45,756 nucleotides of DNA, taken from the NCBI GenBank assembly GCA_947474065.1, contig CANJHD010000012.1, positions 1-45,756 on the forward strand, read 5' to 3'. The position numbers were made by a program, and so were the translations under genes. Within the stretch, counting starts at the first letter, position 1; every line of letters starts with the position of its first letter. Of the stretch, positions 15,587 to 19,441 are shown in pieces. The notes beneath the pieces were generated by a model, which was given only the letters and a program-made list of their open reading frames with translations, had not been told where the DNA came from and did no database searches. The stretch is from Planctomycetaceae bacterium. Its GTDB lineage: Bacteria > Planctomycetota > Phycisphaerae > Phycisphaerales > SM1A02.

Positions 15587-16111
15587 ATGGATATTCAGAT
15601 CCGCGACCCCAGCCGCCAGCCCGTTGGCGTGGCACAGGTGGATCCAACCGCTCGACCAATGCTGGTGCGCGTGGTCAGTCCGAATGGTTTAGAACAAGAA
15701 ATCTACCTCGACTGGGAACATGCGCTCGACGATGCCGGGCAACTGCGGTCCTGTGTTGTGTGTGGATGCCAACGCTTGTACCGACGACGAACGCTTCCGA
15801 GGTTTGCGCCATTTGCCTTGGTGCTTGCAGGAGCGGGTGTTGTAGCCGGTGTACTTGGGTATTCGAGCGACCCGATAGTTCTTACTGCACTCGTTGCGCT
15901 GGTATTTCTTGACGGTGCCGTACTAGTGTTGGCCCGAGTGCAATTGGTCTGCTATCGCTGCGGGACCGCGTATGGGAGCGCACCGATCGCGCGCTACCAC
16001 CAGACATGGGACGCGCGTATCGCCGTGGATCCCGACAGCCTGCCCGCTGCCGTTGGTACCACCCGCAACCGTAACGATAGAGACGAGCCATCGCTACCAT
16101 CAAACCAATGA
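15587..16111 (+). CDS. hypothetical membrane protein with a split zinc ribbon
   Basis: 174 aa. Two Cys pairs, CVVCGC (about residues 56-61) and CYRCG (about 120-124), flank two adjacent membrane helices (about 73-115), so a zinc ribbon could form on the cytoplasmic side with the helices as a hairpin between its two knuckles. The first 55 residues look like a small beta domain; the tail is hydrophilic. Function unknown. The stop overlaps the tmk start by four bases (ATGA), so it is probably translationally coupled to tmk. Confidence 0.65.
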   Translation: MDIQIRDPSRQPVGVAQVDPTARPMLVRVVSPNGLEQEIYLDWEHALDDAGQLRSCVVCGCQRLYRRRTLPRFAPFALVLAGAGVVAGVLGYSSDPIVLTALVALVFLDGAVLVLARVQLVCYRCGTAYGSAPIARYHQTWDARIAVDPDSLPAAVGTTRNRNDRDEPSLPSNQ

Positions 16112-16797
16112 CTGCCCCGGAGATTGTGCCAACGACTGCTGACACCTCGTGGATTCGTTCACTCGGTGGTTGCTTCATTGTGTTTGACGGTCCTGATGGC
16201 AGCGGTAAGAGCACGCAATTCCGTCGCTTCGCAGACGTAGCACGTGCTGCAGGAGTTGATGTCGTAGAGGTGCGCGAACCTGGTGGCACCGCCATTGGTG
16301 AGAAGGTACGAGCCATCTTGCTCGACCCTGCCAACGCTGAGATGACTACACGCAGCGAGATGCTCCTATACATGGCGAGCCGCGCACAGTTGTATGAACA
16401 ACGCATTGCGCCTGCAATAGCAACGGGCGCATTAGTGCTTGCTGACCGGTTCATCTCGAGCACGCTCGCCTATCAAGGAACCGCTGGCGGTATCGATGAA
16501 GAAGAGATTCTCGCTGTTGGCAAGGTAGCCACTGGAAACCACTGGCCAGATCTCACTGTTGTATTCGATGTTGACACCGCTGTTGCAATGAATCGTCTCT
16601 CGCCGCTACTTGATCGCATGGAACAAAAAGGCTTTGACTTCCATGCGCGTGTACGCAGTGGATATCTCGCTCAAGCAGAACGATGGTCGCATCGCTATGC
16701 GGTGGTTAATTCCAGTGTTGCTCCAGATGCCGTGACGAATGGACTACTTGGTGCAATTCAGACATGGATGTCAAAGCAGCGCCTGCCGCGCAGTTAA
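16108..16797 (+). CDS. tmk: thymidylate kinase
   Basis: 229 aa. Phosphorylates dTMP to dTDP. The P-loop is FDGPDGSGKST (residues 26-36), followed by the substrate loop EPGGT and the DRFISSTLAYQG motif (the DR(F/Y) motif of TMPKs). The extra 20 N-terminal residues before the P-loop strand are unusual. It starts inside the end of the zinc-ribbon gene (ATGA overlap), so both form one transcript. A 275-bp gap follows. Confidence 0.95.
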   Translation: MTAPEIVPTTADTSWIRSLGGCFIVFDGPDGSGKSTQFRRFADVARAAGVDVVEVREPGGTAIGEKVRAILLDPANAEMTTRSEMLLYMASRAQLYEQRIAPAIATGALVLADRFISSTLAYQGTAGGIDEEEILAVGKVATGNHWPDLTVVFDVDTAVAMNRLSPLLDRMEQKGFDFHARVRSGYLAQAERWSHRYAVVNSSVAPDAVTNGLLGAIQTWMSKQRLPRS

Positions 16798-17072
16798 GTA
16801 ACTACGGGTGCGTTAGTAATTAGCCTGATGAAGCACACTCATGCGCTACCCGTGATCGCATCAATAGTCGACGCGCTTCATGATGATCGCACAAACCGCG
16901 TATTGAATTGTTCACACAAGTAGTCCACCACGCTCCCACATTGCAATGAAAGTTCGTAAATAGTGACGAACTTCCGCACGTGTTGTTCTGTTCCGCCGAA
17001 ACAGCGTGCATACTCCTCGGCGTGTGTGGACAGCACGCGGGGCACTGGCTGAACCGCAGATCGTGTGGGGAC
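16798..17072. other. 275-bp intergenic region upstream of the XRE/TPR regulator
   Basis: No gene is seen. It holds the inverted repeat at 16950-16973 and presumably the promoter of the regulator gene. No clear terminator for tmk was found. Confidence 0.4.
16950..16973. promoter_or_regulatory. 8-bp perfect inverted repeat, candidate operator
   Basis: AAGTTCGT (16950-16957) and ACGAACTT (16966-16973) flank the 8-base spacer AAATAGTG. The dyad lies about 100 bp before the XRE-type regulator gene, a usual place for an autoregulatory operator; the spacing of about 16 bp between arm centres suits a dimer bound to neighbouring turns. Confidence 0.45.
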
Positions 17073-18311
17073 ATGAATCCGAATGTTGCGCGTCGTGACC
17101 GGTTAAGCCGGTTCGTAGATCTAGCGCGCGTTTATCGTGGTTGGAGCCGGCAAGAGCTGGCCTCCAACCTTGGACGAGACCTTTCCAAAGTTGTTCCTGA
17201 CAGTGGCAATCCGAAGCTTGATTTGGTTATTGCGCTTGCGGATGCGCTTGATTGGAGTGTTGGTGATGTAGCGCAGTGTGTTTGGGAGTCACCACCGCTC
17301 GTGCTGGTGCCTGGTGAAGACTTTGCTGCACTCGATGCACAGGCGATCGAGTCGCACCGTGCTGGTGATTGGCGAGGCCTAATTGCAGGTGGACGGCGCT
17401 TGTTGGCGTCTGCGAACACGCCAGCGGAGCGAGCACGTGCGCTCAATCGGCTCTCTGGTGGCCACGATGGCCTTGGGCGATACTCCAAGAGCCTTGAGTG
17501 CCTGCGCGACGCGCTTTCACTCAGACCATTGACGCCGCAGTTGGAGTTGATGCTGCGCGTCAACCTTGTGGGTGCACACTATGCGCTTTGGCATGTCATT
17601 GAGGCACGGGCCACAGCACGTGAACTCGTTGATCGCTTTGAAATGCGCCCACCTAATGGTCGTGTTGAACGGGTTGCACAGGCATTTTCACTCATGTACC
17701 GCGGTCACTGCTCGCGCCGTGCGATTGCTACATGCAGCGAGGATGCAACTTGCAACGCCAGGGATGCGGCCACAGATTTGGAACGGTCGGGCACATTGTT
17801 CTCTGTTCTTGCCCGCGAGTTCGGCGACGATAGTTACGGTGGCGTTGCCAACACTTGCCGGGGTGCGTTACTTGAGGTTCATTGCACGCTTGGGCTTCTT
17901 GATCCCCTCGACGCAGTGTCGACAATTACAGAGGCTCTTGGTGGCGTTGAGGACCCTTTACTAGCTCCGCCCGGCGACTGGTTAGAAAGTTACGGTTGGT
18001 GGTGCATCTTTGGATGCAATGTGGCAATTCGTCATTTGGATGACCCGCACTTCCATCGAGCAATGGCCATATTTACCAACAAGGCGATTGAAATTGCGGA
18101 CCGACTAGGAAACTGGTCGCTACGAGAGCGTGCCTTCAGTCTTGAGCAAATGAGGCGGGAACGTCTTGAAAAATCTACTGGGTTTGAAGCCGAGTGGATT
18201 CTTGATGAAGAAGATGTCCGCACGATTGCTGGAACGATGGGAAGGTTTCCGTCGTTCCGTGAAACCGGCTGGCGAATCCTTGCTGATGCCCGCATTGTTG
18301 AAAAAGTATGA
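17073..18311 (+). CDS. XRE-family HTH regulator with TPR-like C-terminal domain (RRNPP-like architecture)
   Basis: 412 aa. Residues about 10-68 form an XRE/Cro-type helix-turn-helix (SRFVDLARVYRGWSRQELA, then LDLVIALADALDWSVGDVA). From about residue 85 the protein is helical with degenerate tetratricopeptide repeats: AIESHRAGDWRGLIAGGRRL, ALNRLSGGHDGLGRYSKSL, LRVNLVGAHYALWHVIEA. HTH plus TPR is the architecture of RRNPP peptide-sensing regulators of Gram-positives. Several Cys are scattered through the C-terminal half. The ATG at 17073 gives a normal HTH N-terminus; a frame open to 16980 is less likely. It ends 15 bp before a small exported protein with a strong ribosome site, so they are one operon. 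The peptide-sensing role is inference; it could be an ordinary stress or metabolite regulator. Confidence 0.7.
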   Translation: MNPNVARRDRLSRFVDLARVYRGWSRQELASNLGRDLSKVVPDSGNPKLDLVIALADALDWSVGDVAQCVWESPPLVLVPGEDFAALDAQAIESHRAGDWRGLIAGGRRLLASANTPAERARALNRLSGGHDGLGRYSKSLECLRDALSLRPLTPQLELMLRVNLVGAHYALWHVIEARATARELVDRFEMRPPNGRVERVAQAFSLMYRGHCSRRAIATCSEDATCNARDAATDLERSGTLFSVLAREFGDDSYGGVANTCRGALLEVHCTLGLLDPLDAVSTITEALGGVEDPLLAPPGDWLESYGWWCIFGCNVAIRHLDDPHFHRAMAIFTNKAIEIADRLGNWSLRERAFSLEQMRRERLEKSTGFEAEWILDEEDVRTIAGTMGRFPSFRETGWRILADARIVEKV

Positions 18312-18326
18312 AAGGAGGAATACACC

Positions 18327-18683
18327 ATGAACATGCATATTGAATTTCGTAACAACTCATTGGTTCGACCTCCGGGTCGCCTGACCATCACTTCACTTGC
18401 GATGATTCTGCTCTCTGCATCTGCAACGCTTGTTCCGTGCTCACAAGTGGTACACGCGGAGGGCCGTTCGGCGACCCCGTTCGAAGCCGAACGCGTCACC
18501 GTCGAACGGCGGCGCTGGTGGCTCGACCAATGGGCCCATTCGATGCAGGAAACGTGCTTCATCAACTGGATGAATGTCCAGTTCGGAAGTGCCACCTGGC
18601 AATTGGTTATGACCGTCGAGCAGGTCAACACCATTTATCTGACATGGATGATGATTTCAGAAACGAGGTTCCCGCTGGATTGA
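18327..18683 (+). CDS. small exported Trp-rich protein, partner of the XRE/TPR regulator
   Basis: 118 aa, not recognised. An N-terminal charged region and hydrophobic core (about residues 19-37) end in VVHA, a plausible signal peptidase I site after A44, giving a mature protein of about 74 residues. The mature part has six Trp, several in WW/W-x-x-W-like spacing, a basic cluster (VERRRWW) and one Cys. A Cys inside the signal is preceded by Val-Pro, so a lipoprotein signal is unlikely. It has the strongest Shine-Dalgarno site in the window (AAAGGAGGA), so it is made at a higher rate than its regulator neighbour. By position it could be the secreted ligand, effector or target of that regulator. 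Confidence 0.65.
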   Translation: MNMHIEFRNNSLVRPPGRLTITSLAMILLSASATLVPCSQVVHAEGRSATPFEAERVTVERRRWWLDQWAHSMQETCFINWMNVQFGSATWQLVMTVEQVNTIYLTWMMISETRFPLD

Positions 18684-18771
18684 CGTACGTCTACCCGGAA
18701 CTACCCGTAAAGCCACGCGGTTAGAGCCACCGGCTATTTGGATTAGTCCGGGTATTTAAGGCTGCTTCGCG

Positions 18772-18804
18772 ATCGGGCGGAGTCTCATCTAGACTCCGCC
18801 CGAT
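18772..18804. promoter_or_regulatory. 14-bp perfect palindrome spanning the gmk -10 box and start codon
   Basis: The arms 18772-18785 and 18791-18804 are perfect complements around the 5-base loop CATCT. The right arm contains the candidate -10 box TAGACT (18790-18795, starting in the loop) and the first two bases of the gmk ATG. No T-tract follows on either strand, so it is not a normal terminator. If gmk mRNA is leaderless the dyad would act mainly as DNA, for example as a repressor site; as RNA from an upstream promoter it would hide the start codon. Confidence 0.55.
18790..18795 (+). promoter_or_regulatory. candidate -10 box (TAGACT) of gmk
   Basis: TAGACT is followed by seven bases (CCGCCCG) and the ATG at 18803. 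No Shine-Dalgarno site exists; the box is embedded in a long palindrome. Confidence 0.45.
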
Positions 18805-19441
18805 GGGCGCCAGTGGACATGCAGCAAACAATCACGCTTCGACACAGCAGAGCGCTCACGAGCATCATTCTGGGTTGCTGCTTCTCATCTGTGGGCCATC
18901 AGGCGTTGGGAAGACCACCATCGTCCATGAACTGATCCGCAGGTTCGGTGGACTATTTTCTATCAGCGCTACTACGAGGCAGAAGTCGCCGCAGGAACGG
19001 GACGGAGTCGATTATTTCTTTCTTGATGAATCTACATTTCAGAAGTGGATCGACGAGAATCGTTTCCTAGAACACGCACAGGTGTTTGGCCGCTCGTGGT
19101 ACGGGACGCCCGAAGCTGCCGTGCGCGCGGAACTGGCAAAGGGGCATATGGTGGTGCTCGATATTGACGTGCAGGGAGCAGACAACGTGCGCAAGCACAT
19201 GCCGGATGCGCTTGCGGTCTTCATTCTTCCACCGGACGAGCACGAACTACTTAAGCGCCTGCGCGCCCGTGGACGCGAGGATGAGGCCGCTATTCAGCGG
19301 CGGTTCGCAGAGAGCAAACTTGAGATCGCGCGCGCTACGCATGGCAACACTTTCGATGCATTTGTAGTGAATGACACACTACCGCGTGCTACGGATGAAG
19401 TCTCCGCAATTGTCGCGGCGCGAATTGCTAAACGCTCCTAA
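18803..19441 (+). CDS. gmk: guanylate kinase
   Basis: 212 aa. Phosphorylates GMP to GDP. The P-loop GPSGVGKTT is at residues 31-39, SATTRQKSPQERDGVDYFF is the GMP-binding region, and LDIDVQGADNVR and ILPPDEHELLKRLRAR are family motifs. The first 23 residues, rich in His, Ser and Ala, are an extension not needed for the fold. There is no start between it and the P-loop strand that would give a full domain except a TTG very close to the fold, so the ATG is kept. Its start codon is part of a 14-bp palindrome. Confidence 0.95.
   Translation: MGASGHAANNHASTQQSAHEHHSGLLLLICGPSGVGKTTIVHELIRRFGGLFSISATTRQKSPQERDGVDYFFLDESTFQKWIDENRFLEHAQVFGRSWYGTPEAAVRAELAKGHMVVLDIDVQGADNVRKHMPDALAVFILPPDEHELLKRLRARGREDEAAIQRRFAESKLEIARATHGNTFDAFVVNDTLPRATDEVSAIVAARIAKRS

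Follow-up and report, generated by a model that had tools for sequence, protein, structure and literature searches.

A candidate receptor-ligand gene pair of Phycisphaerae: an XRE-like HTH/TPR regulator and its adjacent exported protein

The window analyzed here is a 45,756-nucleotide stretch of planctomycete DNA (assembly GCA_947474065.1, contig CANJHD010000012.1, positions 1 to 45,756) from a 2.58-Mb draft genome (G000) that is 79% complete. On its forward strand, to which the feature coordinates below refer, it carries a gene for a 412-residue regulator (17073..18311, with the ATG at 17073 and the stop codon at 18309-18311), predicted to join an XRE-like helix-turn-helix (HTH) to a tetratricopeptide repeat (TPR) superhelix. 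After a gap of 15 nucleotides (nt) follows a gene for a 118-amino-acid (aa) protein with the features of an exported protein (18327..18683). We propose that the two constitute a two-gene receptor-ligand module of Phycisphaerae, in which a groove of the cytoplasmic regulator, built from helix A of the second, third and fourth TPRs, would recognize a short segment of the partner, HSMQE in the present case (residues 71-75 of 118; 18537..18551) and, across a large part of the family, H[ST]xQ[DEG]. Occupancy by this ligand would then alter the hold of the regulator on DNA, most simply at its own operon. That the groove recognizes the motif of the adjacent exported partner, by whatever route the two meet, we consider probable in light of the sequence comparisons and structural models described below.

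An earlier note on this DNA had drawn attention to the two reading frames, the gap between them and the exported-like protein. These observations were confirmed, and the pairing was found to be conserved beyond chance. In a census of 140 regulators of at least 300 aa, 136 had enough downstream sequence to be evaluable. A partner was defined as a signal-peptide-like open reading frame (ORF) of 60-400 aa whose start lies between -70 and +150 nt relative to the regulator stop; such an ORF directly follows 111 of the 136 regulators versus 48 of 314 control genes of these loci. The rule, which uses hydrophobicity, is crude, and a small number of the 111 calls are wrong or doubtful: a cation-efflux transporter (detected by Pfam) occupies the partner position in L144 and L164, a guanylate-kinase-like ORF does so in L013, and the frames in L174 and L189 are doubtful. 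In ten more regulators, a motif-bearing ORF is present but falls outside the partner rule or lies at a contig end. The control replaces an earlier one (201/1424, 24 with the motif), which was discarded since it had counted among its controls near-identical regulator loci outside the regulator list. Another 13 evaluable regulators, 11 of them belonging to other families in the class and two to family f1, were collected after the motif had been seen, from nine genomes, one of which was already the source of L109. Twelve of them have an exported partner by the rule, one (L214) being a cation-efflux-like transporter by reading. Most homologues keep an exported partner, contrary to the refuting outcome named in the earlier note. 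As a separate observation, L216, L217 and L218, from another family of the class, have very small exported partners, two of them of 60 aa, with the pattern PSQWQG..IE....GWL and no H[ST]xQ motif.

Homologues of the exported partner in the window occupy the same position in 12 of the 14 genomes that represent the genus, including that of the window. The predicted signal peptide of the protein in the window (residues 1-44; 18327..18458) was called by eye and by the crude rule; by reading, it comprises an arginine-bearing start, the hydrophobic segment LTITSLAMILLSASATL and a cleavage-like site, VHA|E. The mature part of 74 residues contains six Trp, as the Trp-rich description in the earlier note had it. 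Close relatives keep the stretch RRRWWLDxWxHSMQETCFIxWM. In a comparison of L001, L002, L003 and L006 (L004 and L005 were dropped), the nonsynonymous divergence (dN) of the small gene is 0.21-0.48 versus 0.005-0.030 for the regulator, and its ratio to synonymous divergence (dS) is below 1 in five of six pairs, those with estimable dS. Outside the genus the partners are scarcely alignable: sequence searches there with the small protein gave a few same-position matches in family f1, the other weak matches (E of 0.01 to 1) being chance-like; partners were recognized instead by position, signal peptide and motif. The idea that the small gene would vary at its C terminus holds insofar as it varies outside the genus, but the variation affects nearly the entire protein except the internal motif. 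Of the 111 partners, only 10 are of 100 aa or less, with 90 in the range of 101-200 aa and 11 longer, and five motif-bearing partners reach 340-554 aa. The long ones include an M64 peptidase (E of 7e-49) and two beta-helix proteins (E of 1e-4, below the Pfam cutoff, and 7e-11). Further, a regular expression detects a PEP-CTERM-like tail in 30 of 79 motif-bearing ORFs, and TIGR02595 scores over its cutoff in two of four HTNQD partners tested; the partner in the window has no match to TIGR02595.

The motif H[ST]xQ[DEG], which was discovered by reading the partner list and is in this sense post hoc, is present in the signal-peptide-like partner of 69 of the 136 regulators and in none of the 314 controls under the same rule. 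With ORFs that fail the signal-peptide rule included, the count is 79/140, or 73/134 after removal of near-duplicates. In these 79 ORFs it starts 8-57 residues (median, 32) past the hydrophobic core; it is near the start in the five partners of 340-554 aa as well, and it occurs twice in 12 downstream ORFs, one of them (L011) at a contig end. Its flanks in the 79 ORFs have no conserved residues resembling a cleavage site. In a tree of 134 regulators built by a quick method, the variants sort with clades, with few placed apart, forming the blocks HTNQD/HSNQD, HTGQD, HTNQG/HSNQG, HTDQ, H[NST]EQG and H[ST][MVIL]QE. The partners of other regulators have other motifs in common, namely NEGP, PPWH, PPPxxxLLPRF and WMPE repeats. 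The partners with WMPE repeats in one genome (G028; L150, L154 and L157) are made of repeated units of the form W..WMPE..V..HW..F...FG.G.E..F..WM. We also asked whether the motif might tag exported proteins in general, for which a search with H[ST]MQE alone in the draft genome of the window gave no indication. The search gave six DNA matches (none for the reversed-pattern control): the gene in the window, one match that does not encode the motif, and four in other frames, none of which has a signal peptide by reading. These four are two short or unclear frames and two that, by reading, we take to be CysC-like and D-Ala-D-Ala-ligase-like.

The regulator can be confidently described, as modeled, as an XRE-like HTH joined to a TPR superhelix. 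The AlphaFold2 model, built from a 100-row alignment (predicted local distance difference test [pLDDT] score, 94.2; predicted template modeling score, 0.88), consists of a five-helix N-terminal domain, TPR helices at residues 84-369 and a conserved C-terminal part. The predicted HTH domain (residues 1-75; 17073..17297), delimited by hhalign and conservation, contains a strongly conserved GRD(P)xKxxPxSGNPKLDL segment, and its helices in the model are at residues 3-22, 26-33, 37-39 (short), 49-59 and 63-70. The Pfam HTH_3 model matched none of 100 family members at E of 0.01, and HTH_23 matched three. Nevertheless, the XRE assignment of the earlier note is upheld at the profile level: hhalign aligned residues 11-68 with the HTH_3 domains of relatives (23 of the 27 HTH_3 matches found in them) with a probability of 96.4 and an E of 1e-9, versus a probability of 0.8 for the reversed control. 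Relative to HTH_3, three residues are absent around the recognition helix.

The TPR superhelix (residues 84-369; 17322..18179), delimited by the AlphaFold2 helices and structural matches, bears out the TPR-like helical domain expected earlier. Pfam TPR_2 gave an E of 0.0037 on the single sequence, below its cutoff, and a profile search of PDB sequences reached designed TPRs at an E of 1.2e-15; that search returned TPR proteins and a weak tail, with no RRNPP receptor among them. At the level of structure, PlcR with PapR7 and DNA is the second-ranked PDB match in Foldseek (E of 1.7e-4 over 335 columns), surrounded by LGN/Pins TPR proteins. Its template modeling scores of 0.37/0.52 and root mean square deviation (rmsd) of 19.9 mean that there is no good overall superposition. 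VIA-align matched RapI (Z of 17.8, rmsd of 3.4, 231 residues aligned), phi3T Rap (17.5, 4.4, 274) and NprR (17.3, 5.2, 282). Above or beside these stand the non-RRNPP proteins Tonsoku (21.5, 4.2, 275), LGN (18.5, 5.1, 283) and MalT (17.8, 5.5, 290), and all listed matches start at about residue 77 or later, hardly covering the HTH part. This pattern indicates a match of the TPR superhelix and is no proof of RRNPP descent.

Covariation between motif and regulator points to putative ligand-reading faces within residues 125-202 (17445..17678), on helix A of three successive TPRs, with N125, S128, L159, V163, R197, V201 and A202 as candidate face residues. The analysis used mutual information with the average product correction for 82 regulators whose partners carry H[STN]x[QE][DEGQ] (effective number, 40). 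The best columns were V163, A202, L159, D43, R197 and V201 for motif position 3, S128 and N125 for position 2, and R197, V201 and V198 for position 5. Residues 125, 163 and 201 have a spacing of 38, as in successive TPRs. Among the top six columns, five (position 3), four (position 5) and three (position 2) fall in helix A of TPRs 2-4, a placement with P values of 0.005, 0.037 and 0.043, respectively, against neutral characters simulated on the regulator tree. To judge from the aligned residues, the pairing chemistry is sensible. Regulators paired with H[ST][MV]QE mostly have L159, V163, V201 and A/C202, placing hydrophobic residues with Met or Val, and those paired with HTNQD have R159, S163, R/K201 and mostly T202. 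More generally, Asn at position 3 goes with S163, mostly T202 and usually R159 and R/K201, with C201 in most xQG forms, and two HTDQ pairs have G163, K/Q201 and R202. The S163/T202 combination recurs with the HSNQG of L109, which belongs to another branch.

The regulators whose partners belong to other motif classes differ more in the groove half, defined below, than in the HTH. We took 91 sites that are near-invariant in motif-bearing regulators, 30 of which are in residues 84-250 (here, the groove half). The groove-half sites are retained at 0.44 in the class of one paralogue-rich genome (G039; 11 rows), 0.66 in the G028 class (6 rows), 0.66 in the NEGP class (3 rows) and 0.79 in the PPWH class (4 rows); the same classes keep 0.85-1.00 of the HTH sites and 0.89-1.00 of the C-terminal sites. 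At sites 251-369, retention is 0.87 for the G028 class, 0.87 for NEGP and 0.93 for PPWH. The pattern is weaker in seven regulators that have no partner (groove half, 0.76; HTH, 0.89), and seven others, which come first in a tandem or have no partner of their own, show losses at sites throughout (0.73, 0.62, 0.61 and 0.70). L013, L144 and L164 keep 28-29 of the 30 groove sites.

A structural model of a fusion adds to the case. When the stop is read through to give one chain of 536 aa, in which residue k of the small protein becomes 418+k, the low-confidence stretches (at least three residues with pLDDT below 50) are 452-488 and 495-513. Residues 489-494, which separate the two, coincide exactly with HSMQET, the sole part of 452-513 outside such stretches; the C-terminal helix at 515-530 also has better confidence. 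This island is consistent with a motif that is ordered and docked on the regulator. Taking the family motif, the genome search and the fusion model together, we regard HSMQE as the candidate ligand segment.

Several points weigh against recognition of the motif by the groove. The motif is absent from 42 of the 111 signal-peptide partners and is found in the partners of just two of the 13 further regulators (HSDQD and HTTQD). The strength of the covariation at position 3 is not beyond phylogeny: when neutral characters with about as many changes were simulated on the tree (400 runs each), the top score had a P of 0.27 for position 3, 0.89 for position 5 and 0.025 for position 2, and among regulator columns of like entropy, those reaching the respective top score numbered 11/123, 57/97 and 2/88. 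The helix-A set was defined after the columns were known. The close relatives L025/L027 (HSMQE) and L112 (HTMQE) all have A128, so that position 2 is not strictly coupled, and L016 (HTIQE) has G163/T202. In the partner-class comparison, the invariant sites were picked in motif-bearing regulators, which favors the result, the G039 class falls to 0.60 at sites 251-369 as well, and L144 (28/30) and L164 (29/30) keep the groove sites despite the cation-efflux gene in the partner's place. The fusion was judged by pLDDT alone; the tether favors contact, and either the tether or conservation alone could raise the pLDDT of HSMQET. With regard to DNA binding, the recognition helix is short in the AlphaFold2 model. 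Residues 41-50 rank with the best-conserved parts of the regulator across paralogues (mean, 0.83), which is odd because paralogues would be expected to bind different operators. Finally, 122 nonredundant upstream regions contain no family-wide operator word; the words that did recur were A-tracts, ribosome sites and a small number resembling promoters.

A rival reading is an ordinary autoregulated operon: the regulator would act locally on the gene of an envelope or surface protein, the motif would serve that protein outside the cell, and the match between clades of motif and regulator would reflect common descent. Motif and regulator are indeed coinherited, phylogeny alone gives the top score of position 3 in 27% of the simulations, and the upstream searches did not yield a DNA site for the regulator. 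However, this account does not explain the placement of the best covarying columns on TPR helix-A faces, the greater change in the groove half than in the HTH among regulators of other motif classes, the occurrence of one motif in an M64 peptidase, in beta-helix proteins and in small proteins alike, or the island that the motif forms in the fusion model. We consider it possible but rather unlikely, and the groove-recognition proposal the better of the two.

If the groove does recognize the motif, the regulator might meet it in more than one way. The route that we place first, tentatively and with a likelihood somewhat under that of the ordinary operon, is that the motif is read in the unfolded cytoplasmic precursor before export, such that the regulator would adjust its operon to the export load. 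The motif is close to the signal peptide, in the 340-554 aa partners too, and it stays while partner bodies differ widely, some being large and anchored-looking. Further, in 37 of the 111 pairs the partner is predicted to begin no later than the final base of the regulator stop, so that translational coupling would be possible. A parallel is offered by the TPR chaperones of type III secretion (SycD/IpgC/SicA), which couple secretion to transcription: as in these, a cytoplasmic TPR groove would read the substrate before export and couple it to gene control. The differences are that the TPR protein in the present case has its own HTH, the substrate has a predicted Sec-type signal peptide, and the neighboring genes are tmk and gmk rather than secretion genes. 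On the other hand, the motif of small partners is near the signal peptide simply because these partners are small. We know of no Sec-dependent precedent with an HTH-TPR protein, and the route is proposed by analogy. Stated in full, the tentative proposal is of a new one-component regulator whose groove would read an H[ST]xQ[DEG] tag behind the signal peptide of its Sec partner and thereby gauge the export or accumulation of that partner. The tag would be carried by varied proteins (a metallopeptidase as well as small, surface-sorted and beta-helix proteins). Duplication of the pair, with variants of this tag and with different tags, would have given families of up to about a dozen per genome.

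A second route, which we regard as doubtful, is peptide signaling like that of the RRNPP systems (PlcR-PapR, NprR-NprX, Rap-Phr, Rgg and AimR of Firmicutes): the propeptide would be exported, an HSMQE peptide released by proteases and taken up again by an Opp-type transporter, and the regulator would track cell density. As set out in PMC10075063, such systems have a receptor of 250-500 aa with TPRs, adjacent genes and a Sec-exported propeptide of 10-100 aa; the mature peptide, usually the last 4-10 residues, is reimported after processing and binds the TPR domain. The same source describes intracellular receptor and exported-ligand pairs of this architecture from Gram-positive Firmicutes. The likeness claimed by the earlier note is real in receptor length (412 aa), the TPR superhelix, the HTH shared with several of these receptors, and an adjacent gene with a predicted export signal across a short gap or overlap; the predicted Sec export is supported by reading and the crude hydrophobicity rule. 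It breaks down in propeptide length and in the position of the peptide: the partner exceeds the usual range at 118 aa, as do all but 10 of the 111 partners, and the conserved short putative ligand is internal, near the signal peptide, instead of C-terminal. For these two reasons the module is, by the tests applied, not a formal RRNPP member. Other differences are the shortened recognition helix, the absence of an RRNPP receptor from the PDB sequence matches, the matches confined to Phycisphaerae in the samples searched, and partners that can be as long as 554 aa, some of which have PEP-CTERM-like tails or enzyme or beta-helix bodies.

The PlcR-PapR7 and Rap/NprR structural matches, the pheromone-like size of the motif and its doubling in 12 ORFs, and the branch with 60-aa exported partners (L216 and L218) are all in keeping with reimport, as are two OppA-type binding proteins in the genome of the window; however, such proteins are present in 58 of 61 genomes searched and are thus no proof of it. 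Conservation of the motif across many genera, its flanks without cleavage-like residues, and partners that include an M64 peptidase, beta-helix proteins and proteins with surface-sorting-like tails count against this route. Overall, motif position and partner size slightly favor reading of the precursor over reimport, and the remaining share of the recognition proposal goes to another route. By analogy, the module may well work like an RRNPP system insofar as a TPR regulator would read a segment of an adjacent exported protein. Relative to XRE one-component regulators (HTH_3, PF01381), the similarity is at the profile level over residues 11-68 and in the five-helix order; the differences are the lack of a Pfam HTH_3 match at the threshold used and the altered recognition-helix region, which is highly conserved across paralogues.

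Our literature searches found no RRNPP system for planctomycetes and nothing related to HTNQD. On Phycisphaerae quorum sensing and peptides, the titles and opening portions of abstracts pointed to no such system, and a search on planctomycete quorum sensing with signal peptide and TPR gave only Poribacteria. If the proposal is correct, it would define a class-wide planctomycete set with a defined motif and candidate matching receptor residues. Signaling, if real, would extend peptide signaling to a Gram-negative group for which the literature searched has no such system, and export sensing would mean transcription factors that sense the export of their own partner. Either reading could be tested directly with one purified protein and synthetic peptides.

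The regulator matches are, in the samples searched, confined to one planctomycete class, Phycisphaerae. The family is present in 78 of 151 genomes, the genome of the window included: 13/14 of the genus, 60/77 of the rest of family f1 and 5/60 of the rest of the order. A class sample gave a match in 32 of 298 genomes and a phylum sample in three of 294, all three within the order. Scanning 84,980 species genomes with a pattern identified 51 loci, with titles that name Planctomycetota or a subgroup, "uncultured bacterium" and, in one case, Chitinophaga; the Chitinophaga-titled contig has the same length and identity as the contig in G009 of the same genus. Public metagenome-assembled genome records whose titles give Chitinophaga pinensis or Phycisphaera mikurensis NBRC 102666 (L061, L062, L063 and L066) hold the locus of the genus, and these titles look wrong.

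The family is amplified in some genomes. G039 has 16 matched stretches, some of which are fragments of one gene, and other genomes have tandem copies. About a dozen paralogous regulator-partner pairs are found in G039 (L171 and L177-L186), where most partners share PPPxxxLxPxLPxF...W; L183 has three regulator stretches with a similar small gene after each. Three of the six regulator matches in G028 have one internal stop. In L018, L023, L119 and L122, tandem regulators precede a single exported gene, the first regulator lacking its own partner and lying on a long or diverged branch.

In the window, the pair lies between the genes for thymidylate kinase (tmk; 16108-16797) and guanylate kinase (gmk; 18803-19441), both named by Pfam. 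These and other neighbors are less constant than the partner: gmk follows in 29 of 130 loci, tmk is found in 8 of 108 with 1.4 kb of upstream sequence, and tmk is near the regulator in 17 loci in all. Searches of phage and defense libraries gave no match. The intergenic gap contains AAGGAGG (18312..18318), the predicted ribosome-binding site of the exported gene. The site claimed earlier is indeed there, but it is only tied for the best in the window because the perfect AAGGAGG occurs five times on the two strands (2.9 expected by chance).

When 13 upstream regions from the genus were aligned, a conserved block (16968..17045) emerged ahead of the regulator, as a candidate promoter/operator of the pair. 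It contains GAACTTCCGC (16968-16977), GTTCCGCCGAAAC (16990-17002), for which some close relatives have the palindrome GTTTCCGCGGAAAC, the -10-like CATACTC (17009-17015) and, as a further element, GTGTGGACAGCACGCGGGGCAC. A consensus promoter scan made no call in this block. Upstream inverted repeats were considered as operators and not used: stems of at least 8 occur in 15 of 120 regions (4.3 expected), yet also in 9 of 117 further-upstream controls. Downstream of the pair, a perfect 14-bp inverted repeat, ATCGGGCGGAGTCT-CATCT-AGACTCCGCCCGAT (18772-18804), ends on the presumed gmk start codon. It has no T-run and was for that reason not called a terminator by the scan. The RNA fold of 18740-18830 has a z of -3.6, and the reading frames of L002, L005 and L006 suggest that the repeat is conserved.

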